Source: Branchiostoma floridae (Eukaryota; Chordata; Leptocardii; Amphioxiformes; Branchiostomatidae). From it: a stretch of 64,000 nucleotides of DNA. Shown here piece after piece: positions 26,626-63,792 of this stretch. The stretch is from assembly GCF_000003815.2 (NCBI RefSeq), contig NC_049986.1:12430089-12494088 (forward strand). Reading direction: 5' to 3'. Each line of letters starts with the position of its first letter. Position 1 is the first letter of the stretch. The position numbers were made by a program, and so were the translations under genes. Below the pieces are notes generated by a model, which made no database searches, was not told where the DNA came from, and saw nothing but the letters and a program-made list of their open reading frames with translations.

Positions 26626-26714
26626 GGACTACTGTCTGACTTTTCTCCAGTTTCTGGCCTTCACAGTCACAGTGATTTCAGCCAGAAACTATCATTCTGC
26701 ACATACAGTAGTCC
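26626..26714 (-). promoter_or_regulatory. SECIS element (form 2) in the 3'UTR of the SelJ-like gene
   Basis: Read on the minus strand, 41 nt after the stop codon. Helix I is the perfect 10-bp pair GGACTACTGT / ACAGTAGTCC. An internal loop follows, then ATGA (26695-26692), and helix II is the perfect 10-bp pair AGTTTCTGGC / GCCAGAAACT. The apical part has unpaired AAA and a small third helix, TCAC / GTGA. On the 3' side the partner GA of the non-Watson-Crick quartet is at 26647-26646. All the SECIS landmarks (ATGA, AA, GA, with helix II about 10-12 bp) are present in order, which makes chance unlikely. It would recruit SBP2 and the Sec-specific elongation factor to the mRNA. Confidence 0.9.
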
Positions 26715-26754
26715 ACAAGATGGACATACACCCTGCTTTCCGCCTGTCCCCTTG

Positions 26755-29700
26755 TTACAATAGAGAAGATCTGCAGCTGACAACCTGGCTGGCTAGCTCC
26801 AACACTCGTTGATAACGGAACGTTTTAGCCTTCCAGTCAGCAGGGATGCCTTCAACACCCACCTAGAAAAATAGAACAATGAAAAATTAGTAATCATTAT
26901 CAAATATTGAATATGTTCTGTATTATGATCCCTTATTTCAAGTCATTTCTCAATCCTTGAAATGCATTTAATTATCTGTAATACTAAGCAGCAGCCATTG
27001 ATAGGTCATTGACAAGCAAATACAGTGAAATCATCATAGTATAATCTCTGGGCTCCCCCATTTAATACTGCTTCGTCATGGCTCATATCTTCAGCAAAGC
27101 ACGCCAGGTCATCCCTACTCATCTCAAGTGTGTAGGGTTCTTTTACGTGTAGAGGACTGACGCTTGTTGCTTATGCCTGAAGATCCCTCATACACGGGGC
27201 TGCTGGCTTTATGTCACTATCAAAATGGTGAATACAATTCCCTACAGAACTACTTATCTGAGCTAGGGTCAAACCGCTGTCTACGAATCCACTGAATTTG
27301 ATCCATACCAGCCCAATCTACATGGTTATGCTGCCTCCTCAGCTACAGGACATGGATGGAATGATTTCAACTACATGTAACAGTCTACCTCAGCAAACAT
27401 TTGTGCTCTCTAAGCGTAACCATGTTATGATTAACTAACTAATCATTGATGAATCAATGCACGAGGCCCACCTGTGCACCAAAGCATGCCCCAATGATAG
27501 AGGACCTGCTGGCGTTACACCCTCCTGCCCTGATGGTGGTGCGGATAGCTGACACATAGTCACCACCAGTCACTACACCATGGACAGCGGACTGGAGGGA
27601 CTTAGGCAAATCTGCAGGCAAGAGGATATCAATGTATCACTGAGGAGAGGGTTGAAGTAAAACTACATTTTGTATGGTGTGTGTTTGTGGTTTGCTTGTT
27701 TCTGTCAGTATGGTGCGTGTCTGTATTAATTTTTGCATGTGTATGTGTGTGTTTTTATGTGTTAATGTCTGGTGAGTAAGTGTGTATGTGTTTCTCATAC
27801 ACTGAATGAGCTCTATGGGTTGTTTCTTACAAACAAGCATGATCTATTGGATAACTCAAGAATTGGAAGGTCATCAAGATACCAGTAAGTCAGTGTATCT
27901 TTTAGAATCTATAAAAAATCACAGCTAACAATTCACAGGATAACAAAAATTGAATTTCACATATATCAAATACTGTAAATGCAGAAATATTTGCGGTGGA
28001 TTAATGTTCGCGGTTTTAGCGGCGGCCGCTTCACCACGAATTTAAAACCACCGCGAACATTTTTCCATAACAGTAAGAGACTACAGTGCATGGTGCAACC
28101 GCAAAATTCAAACCACCGCGAAAAGTCCATTTTCCTGCTACCGCGAAATTAAATCCCCGCGAACTTAAATGCATTTACAGTACATGTATTTATGGTGAGT
28201 CATATACACTAGGTGCAATGCAGGATGCTGATAAATTCTTGACATGAAAATCATTTATGCTATGTATTATATGACTGTGAGCTTTGGCAAAGTATATTTT
28301 GATCCATAGCTAAGTGCATATTAACTAGTCACACTATGAACAATACATGATAACACTAGTGATGAATCCTTACGTCAGTTGTTGGAGAAGACCTTGGTGA
28401 CAACTTTCCTGTGCTGACCGGCCCTGTTGTCCAGTACTTTCTTCAGGAAGCTGACCATTGCCTGGTCCAGGTCGGTTGGACTCTTCCTGTCCGGTTTTCT
28501 CAGGTCCTCCATCACTGTCTCTATCACTCTGTCGTTCTTCCCATGGAGGATGAACTGTTCCAGTATTCTGGTTTAAATTCAAGTAACAATGAAAATAGAT
28601 GTTCAGTCACACAACTTGTTAAGATTCATAATTATCTTCATCTATTACGTACATCATATGAATTGCAAAATATTCTGTTGGTGTTCTGAAGGTTACACCA
28701 TTTTGTTCTGATACACTCTAACAACTAGACCTATCCCTAACATAGGGGTATTAGAATGTGGGGTTGTCCTGACAAAGGGGTGTAAGAATATGCTTTTTAC
28801 TGTACATATGCATGATTAAGAGTTGAAGATATAAAGACTGTTTTCATGTAGTAAGACTATACAAACTTTCTGTCTTTCTTAAAGTAGTACTTTAAGACCA
28901 CACAAACCTTTTTGCTGTGAAACTAGTTGTAAATGGAAACCGTCTCCAAATACTCATCCCATGTCTACCCATGCCACCAATCTGATCAATTACTAAGTAT
29001 GTTTGGCATATATAGTTACTGTAGTAGTAATACATGTAGTAGTAATTCTGTCCATACCTGGCAATTGTGAGCCCTGCCACCACAGCAGTGTCTGAGTTCT
29101 GGGTTACCCTGAGAGCATCTTCAACCTTCTCCAACATACAGGGCTGTCCCGCATACAAGGCAACCAACGGGGCAACCTTGGTTGCACCATCAACCTGGTC
29201 ATCTTCCTTAGACCCTGGGATAGAAGAGAACACAAAGTTAAACTATAAAAGTATAATTACAAATGTAGAACAGGCATAAGCATGGCTACAGATGCTAGTC
29301 TGTAACCCTTACCTTTGCACAGACTCTAAAGCTTGGTTGATAACGTTTATTTTTGCAAGATAATAAGTATACAATATCTTGTCTGAGATCTTGTCTTGAA
29401 ATTAACATTAAGCAAAGAAAATAATTGCAAATGCAAACTTTGTCTCTGACCTGTATCATCCTTCCCTACCTCTGTGTTTTTCAGGAAGTCTTTGATGCTG
29501 AAATGTCTCCATGAACCATGGATGGGGTAGGATTTCTTCACACCTGGAATGGAAAACAGACATTCATGTACACTCAACTTTTCAACCTTCACTTCAGCCA
29601 ATATAACTGTACATGGAAACATATTCACAAAGTGCAGGGCTCTAGCCAGCGTCCATTTTTCCGTCAATTGACGGAAATTTGTTGCGTCTGACGGAAAAAT

Positions 29701-32691
29701 TTTCAAACCAATCCGTCAACCTTGACGGAAAAAAATCCTTGGTGGAAGCTTCAGGCGGCTTGGGGACGCCGTCCATGGCCGTAAAAGCCACACACTGTTT
29801 GTTTTGCTATTGTTATGATTGTTGACAATGTGTGTCGGTGCCCTTTTGCATACGATAATCTCATTAAAACCCGTTTTTCAAGGTCTCAGTTCAGTCCTTC
29901 TAATTAATTTTCGCGGTTTTCGCGACGATTGGAATTGGCTGACGGAAAAAAGTTTCGAGCTGGCTAAAGCCCTGACGAAGTGTAAAGAAAATTAGATCCC
30001 TTTTACTAGTTTAAGCAGCACACAAGCATGTTGGTAAGCATGGAATCCAGACTATAGCCATGTCCTACACAGGTATTAGCTCTTTGGCGTTAAGACCAAC
30101 ATGTCCCCAAGGTGGCCTGTAGTCAGGCAAACTTTACTGAGGCAAAGTTTCCCCTGCTCTAGGCCTAGAGCCAAAAAGCTGATTATTTTGGCCCTGGTAA
30201 CATTTTGGATTTGAGGCTACATGTAAGGCTATGGCAGAACCTGTTACCTCCATGGGGTCTGTACTCAGAATTCCGAGTGTTGTCGTAGTCTGTTCCCGGT
30301 CCAAACATCCGGTATGTTCTCTGCTTCAGGTCAGCAATGTCAAGGCCTGAAATCAAAATATCTATTACAGCAATTGAAAGATAAATATCATTATAAATCT
30401 GATTCTAAGGCAATTGTGTCACAGGAGGCATTGTTTCATTCCACTGTACAAATTCTCTGGGTCTCATTTCTAACTACTCTCCAAGCAGAGGTTGAGTCGC
30501 GTAGATATAGTAGTACATAGTCGGAAAAATTACACAGCCGCTCCTCTTCATGTAATTTTTCCGAGTACTACAGTAGTACTATATCTACGCGACTCAACCT
30601 CTGCTTGGAGAGTAATTTCTAACCATATTTAAGGGTTCAAGGATGAGTGACAATAGATGCAAAATCTTACTTGCATGCATTATTTGTTTTAAAGAGAGGA
30701 ACTTTAGAAGAACTGTCTAATCTACCAGCACTGTTTTGGTCTAAAAAGTATATCAACTGAAATGACTTTTTCATCGTTCTATTGTCTAATCTTGTAGACC
30801 CGCTCACCCTGACACTCTGCCAGTGACTCCAGCATGACGTAAGCCTGGTCCCCATAACAGCTGTTCCGTCCTGTCTCTATCCTGTAGTACGGGTTAGCCG
30901 AGGGCTGGCGGAACTCTGGTGACTCTTCCTCAGCTATGATGGAATCCAGTTTCGGTAGGTTGTAGATCCAGTGAAGAGGCTGGGCTGAAATTCAATTATA
31001 CATTCTGATGTATTATTTGCAGCCAGTAGGTACACAATTTTGAATAATGAGGCTGATTATGTGCTCGAGGCACCTCCTTGAACACAGGACTCCGTTTTGC
31101 GTCCCTTCCTAAAGACAAATTCATGAATTCTTGTCAGGAATTGGAATTTGGTGAAATATCCCCTCCCCCCCCCCCAGTAATCTAAAATAATTAAGTGTTA
31201 TTAATTTGTATTGTTATGGCATTTAACTCTATCAAAATGTTTTCACTTACTGTTAATACTGTCAACTAGAGTTCGGCGACCTCATACCTCCATGAATATT
31301 TAAAGCTTTTGTTAATTTCATGCAAATGACTTAACATTAACATGATTTATGCATGGTGTTGTTCATCATTGAATAACGTACAGTACAGATGTCACAAGTA
31401 AAATTCCCAATTCAGATCATCAATCATTAAGTCATTTGCAATTTTTGCATAAATTATGCAAATAAGTTCCTCATTTGCATATTTGATATCTGCATATGTT
31501 CCACCGATTATAATTAACAAGTGTTACATTTATCGAAGTCCAGTTATTGCAAGTAATGGAATTATACAATTTCCTCATTAATTAAGCAAATTAATTCCTC
31601 ATTTGCATAAAATGCATATCATTATGAACATCTTTGCCCAAGCTACCTGCATACCTAAAATGCAGGCAATCCGTCGTTCCTTTCTGCAGTTATCCTCTTT
31701 CGAGTGTCTTGACAAAAACACCCCTGCAGTTCCACAATTAAATGTTAGGGGACTGAAACTTGCCCACTTTGTCATGACGTTAAAAGCTATGTACCACCCA
31801 AATGTCACGACCATATCACATCTGGGACGAGAGATACATTGAAAAAACTGCTATGATAGAATATTCTCATTAATTATGCAAATATACTCCTATTTTGCAT
31901 AATTAGTATTTAATCTTGTACAACATTGTCTAAGGTACGTACATACCAAAAATCATGAAAATCCGTTGTTCCCTTCTTGAGTTATCGTCTTCAGAAGTTT
32001 TTGACAACAATGCCCCTGCTATCCCAAAACTAGATGCTAGTGGGCCCAAACTTATGTCACTTTTTCCTGAGCACAAGAGCTATCTAATACTCAAAAATCG
32101 TGACCATGGCATGTTCAGAATACCGAGATAGCAAAACCGGAAGTTGCGCTGCAGTACCAAGGGGAGCCGCTAGGGGGCCCAAAATCTAATCATTTCCAGC
32201 TTTCACCGCACCCCACCAACACACCAAGTATGAAACCAATCCACCCAGCCGTTCTTGAGTTATCTTGTTTACACACAGACACACAGACAAACGCGGGGTA
32301 AAATATAACCTCAAATGGAGGTAATGATTATAAAAGGGAGTCAATTTACCTTTTCTGAGGGCTGAAAAATTCAGAATAATTGTTTGCGGTCCCCTGGTGG
32401 TGACATCAATTAAATTTTGAATGTGCAAATCAGCATGTCACTTTGTTGATGGCATTCACACTGAGGCGTCGCCAAAAAAGGCGGCAGACGGCAACTACAC
32501 ATCTGCTTGTAGATTACCATGACTAAGCGATAATATGCCTCGGAAACCTCCCATGACAACCTTAAACTTAGAGGCCATTAACCAGAACAATCATGTCGTA
32601 AATATTGACTAATGATCTGTAAATTACCTGCAGCATCGGCCACAGCGGCTCCCACGATCGCCCCAATCGCACGTTCGGCCACGGTAGCCAT
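26755..32691 (-). CDS. SelJ: Selenoprotein J-like protein (J1-crystallin / ADP-ribosylglycohydrolase fold), with in-frame TGA read as Sec
   Basis: Minus-strand exons: 32691-32628, 30984-30808, 30346-30248, 29543-29451, 29217-29058, 28567-28374, 27611-27472, 26862-26755. They join in phase to 344 residues only if the TGA at codon 262 (28377-28375) is read through. Landmarks: N-terminal GAIVGAAVADAAAQPLHWIY, CYGDQAYVMLESLAE, FGPGTDYD, a DGATKVAPLVALYAGQP block, then after the TGA GGCNASRSS and the terminal GIPADWKAK segment. Residues after the TGA align with the second paralogue, so the gene is not truncated. The TGA aligns with Cys259 of that paralogue, and a SECIS lies in the 3'UTR. Cys294 replaces the Asp of the usual GGDNASR motif, so ADP-ribosyl hydrolase activity is doubtful. 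SelJ proteins are known from fish and sea urchin. Confidence 0.88.
27971..28182. mobile_element. 212-bp MITE in a SelJ intron
   Basis: The ends TACTGTAAATGC and GCATTTACAGTA are perfect inverted repeats with terminal TA, suggesting a TA target site. Interior arms alternate CCGCGAA-type motifs in both orientations. It lies between exons 6 and 7 of the SelJ-like gene. Confidence 0.75.
28375..28377 (-). other. Selenocysteine codon (TGA) of the SelJ-like gene
   Basis: The in-frame TGA is preceded by AAG GTC TTC TCC AAC AAC and followed by one base (C) before the donor GTAAGG. Splicing gives Asn-Asn-Sec-His-Leu-Pro-Lys. The paralogue reads Ser-Ser-Cys-Ala-Leu-Pro-Lys at the same place with TGT. 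Read as a stop it would remove 82 conserved residues and leave two downstream exon junctions, a classical NMD substrate. Confidence 0.87.
29635..29974. mobile_element. 340-bp hAT-like MITE in a SelJ intron
   Basis: The ends are CAGGGCTCTAGCCAGC on the left and GCTGGCTAAAGCCCTG on the right. Flanking octamers ACAAAGTG (29627-29634) and ACGAAGTG (29975-29982) differ at one base, the 8-bp duplication typical of hAT. The interior carries several TGACGGAAAAA motifs in both orientations. No coding capacity. Confidence 0.75.
30475..30614. mobile_element. 140-bp near-perfect hairpin MITE with 9-bp target-site duplication
   Basis: TACTCTCCAAGCAGAGG at the left is matched by its complement at the right, and the arms pair over almost 60 bp. 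The direct repeat ATTTCTAAC flanks it exactly (30466-30474 and 30615-30623). A 9-bp duplication fits a Mutator-like origin. The near identity of the arms points to a recent insertion. Confidence 0.82.
31020..31129. repeat. Dispersed repeat, copy 2 (SelJ intron 1)
   Basis: The partner of 25538-25650, with shared blocks AGCCA-TA-GTAC, ATGAGGCTG, GAGGCACCTCCT-GAACA and GTCCCTTC-TAAAGAC. Same orientation as copy 1. Confidence 0.6.
31260..32330. repeat. Complex AT-rich interspersed repeat in SelJ intron 1
   Basis: A mosaic of related units with TCATTTGCATAA / TTATGCAAATA segments, alternating with units that end in TTCTTGAGTTATC and contain phrases such as ATACCAAAAATCATGAAAATC and CCCCTGC-TCC-AAA-TAGATG. 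The final unit runs into ACACACAGACACACAGACAAACGC. At least two tandem, diverged copies can be followed (about 31410-31850 and 31860-32310). I know similar sequences as abundant repeats in several marine invertebrates, but cannot name the family. Confidence 0.5.
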
Positions 32692-42800: not shown

Positions 42801-45800
42801 TTGTGCCCTTGAGAAAGGCAATTAATTCCAATTTCCTCACTCCACCCAGGTGAAAATGAGTACCTAGCTTCAGTTAGAGTTGTCTAACCAATAGGACATT
42901 CAATGGAGGTCATATGTTTGAGGAGAGCCACACTCAGAGCATGTTAAAGAACCCACATACTTATCAAAAAGAGTAAGAATCTTTGGCCTGTTAGAATCTA
43001 TCAAGCAGATGAAGTAAGTACACTGTCTTTGGTGCTGAACACCATCTATATACAGGCAAACATACCTATCCTTGGTGCTGAACACCATCTATATAAAACA
43101 TACCTGTCCTTGGTGCTGAACACCATCTATATAAAACATACCTGTCCTTGGTGCTGAACACCATCTATACAAAACATACCTGTCCTTGGTGCTGAACACC
43201 ATCTATATAAAACATACCTGTCCTTGGTGCTGAACACCATCTACATAAAACATACCTGTCCTTGGTGCTGAACACCATCTATATAAAACATACCTGTCCT
43301 TGGTGCTGAACACCATCTATACAAAACATACCTGTCCTTGGTGCTGAACACCATCTATATAAAACATACCTGTCCTTGGTGATGAACACCATCTATATAA
43401 AACATACCTGTCCTTGGTGCTGAACACCATCTATATAAAACATACCTGTCCTTGGTGATGAACACCATCTATATAAAACATACCTGTCCTTGGGGCTGAA
43501 CACCATCTATACAAAACATACCTGTCCTTGGGGCTGAACACCATCTATATAAAACATACCTGTCCTTGGGGCTGAGCACCATCTATATAAAACATACCTG
43601 TCCTTGGTGCTGAACACCACCCATATACATATGTCAAAACATAATGCTAGCTGCTTTAAATTGTATTTCTCTGTGATGTAATAGATGACAAACCCATGGA
43701 ATTGCTCTGCAGCTCCAATGTCTGCTAAGAAGTGGCCAAACAACTGTAGCTGAGGTTTAGACATGGTCCTCCTGGGCAGCATGAGGTCACTCCACATCAG
43801 GGGAGCTGCTCCGTTCAAGTCTTCAGCACTCCTCCAGGACCCTAGCATCTAACACAGCATAACAATATGTCAACATATTTATAATTATCGCATACGCTAA
43901 CCTTGATAACTTAACAACCTATCAAAGTAAAATTAATGTAAAAATTTTTTATTTCTATTTATAATAGGTGGGCATATTTTTACGTAGGACCAAACATTTT
44001 CATCGTTTGTATAGATCATAGTAATGGTGATATTATTGCACCTTCTCCACTAAATAATATCCCAGTATTTTGATGATTTGAACACTGAACATTACATGTA
44101 AAAAATAATTTTCAGGATCAAACATTTTGAAGATCATTTATACTTATGATTTGAACTTGAAATGATATTGGTAATTACTCTTTCTGAAGAAACTTTTTCA
44201 CACATAACACTCTTCTGAGTCAGAAATACATTTTGCAAATCAGAGTAAATGAAAGTCAGTTTACCTTTATGGTAGTAGCTGCTTTCTTCAAAGTTGGTCT
44301 CAGTCCCGGAAACTTCTCAAGCAAGCTTTTGGTCTCTGGTGATAGATCATCTAAGTGATAGGAAAGGAAATTCTAATTTCAATCTGTGAGCATCTCATTG
44401 AGAAGCAATCTCACATGTAAATGAAGGTTAGACATCCTAAGGTAATAAGATATGCCAAAAAGCAGTTATTTAAGCAACTGTCAGTGGATACAAAAGCAGT
44501 TACTCAAGCAACTGGATATCTCACAGTTTTGGAAAAAGATTAGTAAAAGAATATACATTTATTATCAACCTCTATCATTGTACTTCAGAAAAAAATGCTT
44601 ATTATGATAATAACATTCAACCTACCAAAGATAGAGTCCTCTACCTCCTGGTTGGTGGACTGTAGTGTCCTCATCATCTCTGACAGGTACTTGACTTTGC
44701 TACCCTGGTCTCCCGTGGACTGATATGTGTCACTCTTGTATGCGGCAGCCAGAAATGTCTTAAACTCAGGGGATGCCTCTGACAACCCTTGGAAAATTTG
44801 GACAGCCTGTAATGAGAATGGAATTTGTTCATAAAACCAATTTCATGACAGACTATTTCTGGTTACACATCATTTCAAGCACTGTACATTGAACTCAATA
44901 AGAAAAAATTTCCATGATTAATTTCTTCCATTGTTTCTTGCCTTCTATGAAATTTCATCTGTCTAGTCAAGAATGTGTCAAAATGAATGTAAATGTCAAT
45001 AATGATAAGTTAGAGCAGGTATCATGAATCAGACAAAATTTCAGGTCTCCTTGGACAGAAGGCTGAGTATACTGAAACTGACTCGAGGGACAATACAAGA
45101 AACACGATTATAATTCATGACTAGGGCTGGGTATCGGGACAGTATACCAGTACAAAATCAATTTGTCTTGCTGGACCAATCCAGAAAAAACGAAGCTGAA
45201 AAAAATGGACCAGATTCTCACTAGCCTTTCCTTCTGTACTTTTCAAAGTGAAGAATATCCTTAACATACAGCGTACTTACAAATCAATGAGATATAACGT
45301 TACATTGTATTGGCTGTAAAAAAACAAAGTGAGTAACAAGTACCTGTTGAAGATACAGGACAGCTAGCTGGTGGTCTCCAGCTGTCTGTAGTACCTTTGC
45401 TGTATGTAAGAGGGACAGCCCTACATCTACATTGGTGCTGTTCTCCCCATGCTGCTCTAGCCGTGTCTGTAAGGCCTGCTCGTGGAGAGTACGCTCCTTT
45501 CCTACATTTCCAAGTTCACTGTAGCACCTGTAGAAACAATGCATGGGTCAATGGTAAACTTGATACAAAAAATGAGGAAACTTGATTTTGGTCAATCACA
45601 CCTTCAAAAATGCTCAGTCAATAACAATGCTCAATATTTACAGATCTTTACATTGATAATTTCCATTTGATATGATCCTAAATGCATTGGAAATCTGATC
45701 AATCAACTTCATAACTTGATATTAAACATTTGATTTATACAATGTATAATTACTAAGTGGCATCACCTGACAGTGCTTGATAATTTGCATGCACCTATCA

Positions 45801-60210: not shown

Positions 60211-63200
60211 CTAGCTTTCTCGAACTGCAGCAAGCTTCTGTGCCAAGTTCAGCACAGTCTGGTACCGGGTGCACTTTTCCTTCCACTCAGTAGGGATGCC
60301 ATCCAGTCCACCCTGTAAGGAACGTGCAAAAAATGTTACTACTAGTTTGTATGACACATTACAACAAATGACAGGAAATTATTTCTGACTGAATAAGCTT
60401 TCTTCACTCTAAAGTCCTACATGTATTAAGGTATCGATGATTCAAGACAACAACTTTTTAAACTTATGGTACAAATGCAAACAAATGAGACATACAAATT
60501 CTGTGTAACAAAAATTTCTGATAACTACAAAATTGAAAAAGTGCTTCATTGTTCATCAAGGTTATACAATCTTATAAGTATATAGGTACATAAGACTACA
60601 TTTGATAAAAGTACATCTGGATGAAGCTCCTTGATGAACAAGTATCAATCAGAGACTCACCAAGGCACCAAAACAAGCTCCAATGAAGCAAGCCCGACTG
60701 GCGTTGTCACCACCTGCTAAGATAGCTGCTCGTACTGCAGATGTGTAGTCCGTGTGGGTGACCACACAGTGGAGAGCTGCCTGGAACTGCTTGGGTAAGG
60801 CTGGGATACAATATAGAAGAACTGTCAAATCACTTTGGACTTTATGTGTCATATTGTGTCCATACTTACAGTAAAGAATGATCTTTGAAATTGGATTGAA
60901 TTGATCAAAGTCAAACGTTGAAATAGATCAAACAAAACCATGCGACGGAATAAACATTGCACAAAGAGCTTTCACATTAAACAAAAAAGATTTGTAACAA
61001 TTTACCATAGTGAGTCAGATTAACCTAGTAACAGTGTCCATTCAAACAAAACAATCAAGAGACATATCACTGTTGTAACATGATCAAGACATACCACAGC
61101 TACTTCCAAACACCTTGTTGACAACCTCCCTGTGTGGTTTTCCCAGTGGTTTTTGTTCCTGAACTTCCCCAACTTGTTTTAGCACAGTCTCATCCTGGCC
61201 AGTGATACCCTGTCCCTCCTTCTTCCCAAGTTCTTCCATCAAGGCTTCCATCACTCCCTCCTGTTTTCCGTGTAAAATGAAGGCCTCTAATATCCTATAA
61301 AAAAGACAACAACAAAAAAATTGTCAATGCAAGAATGCAGGTGCAGTTAATATACAGGGATGCCAAAGAAGAGTATACATTTTAAATCCTAACCTGGCAT
61401 TAGCAAGAGCTGCAGACAGTGCAACGGGGTGTTTCTGTGTGACTTTGACTGCAGCCTCTACTTTTGCCAGCATGTCAGGTTGTCCCGCATACAGCGCAAC
61501 CAGAGGGGCAACCTTAGCAGCACCATCAGCTTGTGTGTCTGTGTCTGACCCTAAAACAAAAGAAATGGCTTTTGAAATTACCATTTTGTGCATTATTTGT
61601 AGAAAACCTATGGTCTGAGTGCAATTCTCATGCTCCCATTAGTTTGCTCACTACAATTGACTTCCCAATGACATGCCAACAATTTGGTGTTGAATGGGTA
61701 CTCATCACTGTAAGATATTTCCTTGTCCTTGGCTACCCACTGTAAGATTACAAAAATCTAGTACTTCCTTGTCCTTGGTGCAGATTGGCTATCCTATGTA
61801 AATTATACGATTCCATGATACAAAAGTCCATCCCTGTCCTTGGTGCTGATTGGTTACCCACTATAAGATTCCATGCTATTTCCTTGTCGTTGGTGCAGAT
61901 TGGCTATCCTCTGTAAATTATAACATAAGATTCTGTGATACAAAAGTCCATCCCTGTCCTTGGTGCTGATTGGTTACCCACTATGAGAGTTCATGATATT
62001 TTGATGTCCTTGGTGCTGATTAACAGCCTCAGTTTTCCATTGTGAGTGAGTCATCGTGGGTAGCGTATACTCACAAGTATGGCAATCAAAATGAAAGTTT
62101 CCTGTACAACTTCAATAATCTTAAAAAGGTATTACATGTATAAAAGATCCAAGTTAAACAGATATACCATATGAGGCACAAACACATTTCAAATTTTATT
62201 TGAATAAGCAGCACCACACATGTACTAGTAACTACGTCCATGCAAAATACTTCTCAATTCTTAATCCTCACCGGTGTCTTCCTTCTTGGCTTCCATACTT
62301 GCCAGGAACGCTTTGATGCTACCATTCCTCCAGGGCCCTTTGATAGGACGCGTCTTTTGATCTCCTGAAAGAAGGAAAAATCAAAGGTCAACAAATACGA
62401 GGTTTGTTACCAAAGTGGGTTTGTCAATTGCCTTCTGGGGAGTGGTTACGTTGGCTCATTTTCATCTCCCCCTATTTCTCAAGGGATAAACAGCACACTA
62501 CCAGTGTTACACCATCTCATATTATCAAGGGAGTTCAAGTTTAGACAGACAAACACAGCATTCTAATTTGAACACAAATTAACACCTCATCTTCAGAACT
62601 TCCAGGGGACAAAATTGAAGGTGGCAGCAATATACATCAAAAGGGATCCGTATGATTGCTCATGATGATAAATCTAATAAAATTTTGTGGGCTTTCCACA
62701 CCCAATTTTATGCACAGGGGTTCAGATTGAAAAAAAAAAATTCCATCGCCTCTCGTAATTCTAATGTATAATTCTAGTCATGCAGGGAAATGGTGAACAT
62801 TTCAGGTTTACCTGTGTCAAAAGCAGTGCCTGGTCCAAAGAACTTGTAAAATCTCTGCTTTAAGTCATTGACATCCAGTTCTATGGATAACAAATTGTGT
62901 TTTACATATAATCAAGACAAAACAACAACTTTACACAAACACTTTTCAATTGCCAATTTTACAATATGGACAAACGATACAGAAATTTGAGCTGGGCAGG
63001 GAGTGAGATGCAAAAATCAAACGTTTTGAGTAAAATTGATACTACCATTACCCCAGGGCCATTTAATAGAGCCCTCTGATGTACAGACAGTCAAATGGAT
63101 GTAAATTGAAAATTCAGAGCTGTTTCATGTCATATTTCTAAACCTTTGCACTCAGCCAGGGACTCCAACACTACAAAGGCCTGGTCCCCGTATGCAGTGT

Positions 63201-63792
63201 TAGTGCCGGTGTCAGTAGTGTAGAAGGGACAGGCTGATGGAGAGTGGAACTCTGGGTCCTCCCCACCAACTGCTGCATCCAGCTTCTCCAGGTCATATAC
63301 CCAGTGTAGGCCTTGTGCTGAGGAGTAAAGTGAAAACGAAGTCATTGAGTGCACTAATTGTGTGTTAATGTAAAGAAAACCAACAAACTGTTCAGATTAA
63401 GGAAATTTGCCAGGCAAAACTTGAATCTAATTCTCTAGATATTATCTGAACATTCGTGTTAGTATGCCACACCTGAGGCAAGAGAACTAGATTAGGATAT
63501 TAGGATAGGCAGTATAGACACTGCAGAGGATAGAGTGGCCGAATTCCGGAAATTCTTATTGACAACTGAGCATCCTGTCTACTCTGCAAAAATGCTGACA
63601 GAAAAATCCTGTCAAAAATAAAAATCTTATTGACAGGAACATCCTGTCAATAGCTAATCCGCCTAATTATCATAAAGGCAAGAACAGCAAGCAAGCAGCC
63701 ACTTCACCAGCCGAATCAGCCACCAGCGATCCCACTACTGCGGCAACAGCACGGGCGGATACCTCATTCGCTGGGCTCATCTGTGCGGCCAT
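60211..63792 (-). CDS. J1-crystallin-like protein, ADP-ribosylglycohydrolase fold, Cys paralogue of SelJ
   Basis: Minus-strand exons: 63792-63708, 63317-63144, 62880-62812, 62364-62272, 61550-61394, 61294-61095, 60800-60661, 60312-60211, giving 339 residues. Its eight exons have the same junction phases as the SelJ-like gene, so the two are duplicates. Landmarks: VVGSLVADSAAQGLHWVY, AYGDQAFVVLESLAE, FGPGTAFD, DGAAKVAPLVALYAGQP, Cys259 at the position of the Sec codon, and GGDNASRACFIGACFGA with Asp291 kept. The alternative start at Met5 is possible. The fold is that of ADP-ribosyl-acceptor hydrolases, but J1-crystallins are lens proteins in jellyfish and their enzymatic role is uncertain. Confidence 0.9.
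61720..62030. repeat. Irregular minisatellite with shared core
   Basis: Five or six diverged units of about 60-70 bp, each containing CTTGTCCTTGGTGCAGATTG or CTGTCCTTGGTGCTGATTGG. They lie in the intron between exons 4 and 5 of the Cys paralogue. The TCCTTGGTGCTGA core is the one seen in the arrays at 43 kb and 49 kb. Confidence 0.7.

Follow-up and report, generated by a model that had tools for sequence, protein, structure and literature searches.

We found that a 64,000-nucleotide stretch of Branchiostoma floridae DNA (contig NC_049986.1, positions 12,430,089 to 12,494,088; hereafter the window, with positions counted from its first base) carries on its minus strand a functional SELENOJ gene of amphioxus, very probably the same gene as the SelJ that Jiang et al. 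2012 list for B. floridae. As judged from the DNA, the gene appears to combine the features of a eukaryotic selenoprotein gene: a frame that is conserved past an in-frame TGA, a homologue with Cys, a SECIS element in the 3' UTR, and Sec decoding machinery in the same organism. By the established mechanism, in which a SECIS recruits the SECIS-binding protein, eEFSec, and Sec-tRNA, the hairpin in the 3' UTR of the SelJ mRNA would bring these factors to the message, and UGA codon 261 would then be read as selenocysteine.

Structure of the SelJ gene

The gene was reconstructed from splice sites and reading frame as eight minus-strand exons (32691–26755) separated by seven GT-AG introns, which together give a single frame of 343 codons provided that the TGA is decoded; the exons and the TGA lay where the original prediction had placed them. 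Exon 1 (32628–32691) opens the frame with the start ATG and ends in cag followed by the donor GTAATT, and exon 2 (30808–30984) is bounded by an AG acceptor and a GT donor of phase 1. Exons 3 (30248–30346), 4 (29451–29543), and 5 (29058–29214) are followed by exon 6 (28374–28567), in which a single base separates the putative Sec codon from the donor. This TGA (28377–28375, codon 261), the sole internal TGA of the frame, is aligned with a Cys codon (TGT) in a paralogue and is followed by one extra base (C, 28374), by the donor GTAAGG, and, beyond the intron, by an open and conserved frame. The frame continues through exon 7 (27472–27611), which shares residues with the paralogue, and exon 8 (26755–26862) to a TAA stop at 26757–26755. 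The phases of the seven introns are 1, 1, 1, 1, 2, 1, and 0.

Two of the introns contain repeat-like sequence. Intron 2 has a palindromic repeat of about 150 bases (30469–30620) that resembles a foldback MITE and coincides with a weak Rfam MIR162_1 match under the gathering score; 82 genome matches to this repeat were listed from the best 40 of 756 candidates, with many sites counted on both strands. In intron 6, inspection by eye revealed a 'ttcgcggt'-rich, inverted-repeat-like stretch (27970–28170) that is perhaps a mobile element.

A form 2 SECIS element downstream of the stop codon

A hairpin in the predicted 3' UTR (26626–26714, minus strand) was identified as a form 2 SECIS element by its fold and by its scanner score. 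Helix I, formed by GGACTACTGT (26714–26705) paired with ACAGTAGTCC (26635–26626), starts at the 41st base past the SelJ stop and is followed in order by an internal loop, the ATGA core (26695–26692), helix II, an unpaired GAAA, a 4-bp helix III, and the partner GA, an order that corresponds to form 2. Helix I, the ATGA, the third helix, the GA, and the 41-nucleotide spacing had all been correctly anticipated, whereas helix II, previously given as 10 bp, comprises 12 bp according to both RNAfold and the scanner, with two extra pairs at its loop end.

A stretch of 121 bases around 26714–26626 folds at −49.5 kcal/mol (z −5.8), and none of 200 shuffles of this stretch (mean −29.75 kcal/mol, sd 3.41) reached so low a value. 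With a SECIS scanner written for this analysis, which is not SECISearch3, the strict setting gave the SelJ hairpin a score of 18.0, the top match on both strands of the window, with the runner-up at 13.8. Ten deiodinase 3' regions scanned in the strict setting reached at most 14.6, and 400 first-order random sequences, each 64 kb long and generated from the dinucleotide steps of the window (25.6 Mb, one strand), yielded 1,633 matches with a maximum of 16.3. The expectation that the hairpin would score as a SECIS was thus confirmed by a score that is the best in the window and above the random maximum, as well as by the fold. The SECIS families of Rfam gave no match in the gene region at E values up to 5 or in the window at gathering scores; this result says little, because the same families also missed the SECIS-like elements in four of the ten deiodinase 3' regions fetched, at E values up to 1.

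A tandem paralogue with Cys

About 28 kb from SelJ, the minus strand carries another gene (60211–63792), whose eight exons encode 339 amino acids. Exons 1 to 4 lie at 63792–63708, 63317–63144, 62880–62812, and 62364–62272, and exons 5 to 8 at 61550–61394, 61294–61095, 60800–60661, and 60312–60211. The boundary of exon 2 is less certain than the others, because its donor (aag followed by GTTTAG) scores poorly, at −4.0 with an approximate set of donor weights. The two proteins are 55% identical, and all seven intron phases are the same. At the codon equivalent to the SelJ TGA the paralogue reads TGT-G followed by GTATGT, and the claim that it has Cys at this codon therefore holds. A search of the genome (513.4 Mb, 431 contigs) with the SelJ protein, in which only the best candidates are scored (15 of 15), gave 11 matches, every one of them in SelJ or the paralogue.

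We detected no relic of a SECIS behind the paralogue, either in a strict scan of the whole window, in a relaxed scan of 60250–57000, or by blastn over 60330–55000. Among possible prokaryote relatives, 55 stretches fitted a pattern and none was confirmed by tblastn. The passages of the SelJ and SELENOJ literature that we consulted contain no mention of this Cys neighbour, which may be described elsewhere in print. Degenerate repeats ('caatcagcaccaaggaca') were seen by eye in intron 4 of the paralogue (61650–62000). At 43012–43632, also on the minus strand, three precursors of mir-2060, which we take to be an amphioxus family, exceed the Rfam gathering score.

Protein family and environment of the Sec residue

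The SelJ protein matches the whole profile of Pfam PF03747 (E 1.3e-36; 127.2 bits against a cut-off of 26.2), with the match extending to residue 317 and thus past the TGA, and the paralogue likewise matches the whole profile (E 7.6e-43). These matches bear out the assignment to a J1-crystallin-like or ADP-ribosylglycohydrolase domain, for which the name Ribosyl_crysJ1 is in use (PMC7050489, PMC9087173). In a MAFFT alignment with L001, a member of the ARH family encoded in this genome, the second metal motif reads GGCNAS in SelJ, GGDNAS in the paralogue, and GGDTDT in L001. SelJ consequently lacks the intact GGDxD motif of an ADP-ribosylhydrolase enzyme, and, with this second metal motif lost, its product is predicted to be an ADP-ribosylglycohydrolase-fold protein that probably does not act as a classical hydrolase. 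ARH3, DraG, and MJ1187 share the PF03747 domain with SelJ and align with it in their C-terminal parts, but SelJ differs from them in having GGCNAS in place of GGDTDT and in carrying Sec. Among solved structures, its best match is the protein named mt-SAF23 in the PDB (6sga chain FP; E 3.7e-7), which is similarly without the Asp motif (GGPVCQRS); the best aligned stretch, of 59 residues, stops short of the Sec column.

The surroundings of the Sec residue were examined by alignment with DraG (2woe chain). The phmmer match is weak (18.2 bits, ungapped, 64 residues) and pairs Sec261 with residue 216 of the chain and His262 with residue 217, which is a Tyr; a two-sequence profile gives the same match. 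Should the chain begin with five additional residues, its residue 217 would be Tyr212, and the same offset places the motif Asp of DraG at 243, which we take to be a metal ligand. Tyr212 of R. rubrum DraG is described as stacking on adenine (PMC7050489). The exact match of the Sec column is uncertain, because a 4-residue gap relative to L001 follows directly after Sec in the MAFFT alignment. On this weak alignment, Sec may lie at the edge of the former nucleotide cleft and adjoins the residue that matches the adenine-stacking Tyr, from which our best guess is a redox or ligand-linked role at that cleft.

A different view of the protein is that Sec is decoded but non-catalytic, in a product that is purely structural and crystallin-like. 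This view, which is compatible with the reading of the gene as SELENOJ, is a serious possibility, although we lean against it: the loss of metal ligands and the kinship of the PF03747 family to jellyfish J1-crystallins fit such a protein, but Sec is costly to make and has been kept beside a Cys copy, and the Sec column aligns, if weakly, near the nucleotide cleft. In SelJ, Cys293 replaces the old metal-ligand Asp, and the paralogue keeps Asp at that position and has Cys at the Sec column. We see a small chance that the Sec copy would be a redox enzyme in which Sec261 and Cys293 form a pair in a dead hydrolase cleft, with the Cys copy serving a separate function and the two genes constituting a natural Sec/Cys comparison.

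Conservation past the TGA

We compared SelJ with the paralogue on both sides of the TGA. Residue identity is 136/249 before the TGA and 45/80 past it, in agreement with the earlier claim that the residues beyond the TGA are conserved. The proportions of differences at codon positions 1, 2, and 3 are 0.305, 0.257, and 0.598 for the 249 aligned codons before the TGA and 0.425, 0.250, and 0.637 for the 80 aligned codons past it, with dN values of 0.34 and 0.40, respectively. First-position differences and dN are thus somewhat higher past the TGA, which counts against our main reading; taken together, however, the codon-position differences and dN indicate that the downstream stretch appears to be under protein-level constraint much like that on the upstream stretch.

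This pattern bears on the view that the TGA, a stop in the standard code, is here an ordinary stop that yields a truncated protein of 260 residues, with exons 7 and 8 and the hairpin as relics. We consider this very improbable, given that frame and splice sites are preserved in exons 7 and 8, that 45 of 80 residues are shared with the paralogue and variation falls mostly at third positions, that a SECIS is present downstream, and that the PF03747 match runs past the TGA. Scarcely credible is alternative splicing that would remove the TGA, for instance from an in-frame GT donor at 28418 to give a Sec-free protein shorter by 15 residues, because on the same approximate weights that donor scores 0.8 versus 2.4 for the used exon 6 donor, which marks an intron position shared with the paralogue, the lost residues would include HRKVVTKVF (seven of nine matching the paralogue), and the SECIS would be left unexplained. 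The reading of the TGA as Sec is supported by the open frame, the Cys paralogue, the SECIS, and the identity past the TGA, as originally predicted.

Sec decoding elsewhere in the genome

Four Rfam matches to tRNA-Sec in the genome are above the cut-off, with a model that is loose, given that each of 14 control genomes also gave matches, which exceeded the cut-off in 5. According to ARAGORN, three of these loci are tRNA-Sec with a TCA anticodon and the fourth is tRNA-Ser. In-frame TGA codons were present in 10 of 22 deiodinase exon matches, in 5 of 18 for GPx, and in one of two for the Sep15/SelM family; the single exon match to PF10262 (SelW/SelT-type) was without TGA and was not used. The tRNA-Sec(TCA) and the other TGA-containing genes indicate that the organism has Sec decoding machinery.

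The regions downstream of these exons, 17 in all (10 deiodinase, 5 GPx, and 2 Sep15/SelM), yielded 13 SECIS-like elements in 12 regions; the elements were picked by eye, with L051, L052, L068, L069, and L072 left out and with the element of L056 not being the scanner's top match. Most of the 13 are not distinct by score alone, because antisense controls reached 12.9 with the relaxed scanner, as high as many of the elements. The strict scanner misses many elements, as it gave a sense match in only 5 of the 10 deiodinase regions, compared with an antisense match in 2 of the 10. A MAFFT alignment of the 13 elements was too gapped for a covariance model.

Two SECIS-like elements (L058:592–673 and L058:1022–1103) lie behind one deiodinase gene in a cluster of three. 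A B. floridae deiodinase cluster in which the double-SECIS gene is on the strand opposite to the other two has been described (PMC3473315). The cluster found here likewise has three genes and a double-SECIS gene, but this gene shares the strand of one neighbour. A further deiodinase-family match (L029, G000:C9:8772026–8772622) covers profile positions 41–235 with no internal stop and is possibly a Cys form; it lies approximately 8.5 kb from a TGA-bearing deiodinase match (L030).

Known range of SelJ and significance

SELENOJ is characterized by an in-frame TGA, an ADP-ribosylglycohydrolase-like protein, and a SECIS, as is the gene described here. Table 1 of Jiang, Ni and Liu 2012 (PMC3473315) counts one SelJ in B. 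floridae, in agreement with the one Sec gene that we found, and the same paper places the loss of the SelJ family at the tetrapod stage. In the text of Mariotti et al. 2012 (PMC3316567), amphioxus was among the genomes searched and SelJ was not among the vertebrate-specific selenoproteins. A 2020 survey reported SELENOJ in algae (PMC7539508). The original prediction held that a SelJ gene here would extend or confirm the range of the family in chordates; because SelJ of B. floridae and algal SELENOJ are already on record in these sources, the gene can only confirm that range, and, going by the 2012 table, a lancelet SelJ gene is not new.

The analysis provides exon coordinates in a long-contig assembly for a cephalochordate SelJ gene. 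SelJ and the nearby Cys copy, which is without a detectable SECIS, make up a within-genome pair for the comparison of Sec with Cys, and the tandem arrangement of the two copies, together with the substitution of Cys for a metal ligand in the one with Sec, is perhaps worth following.
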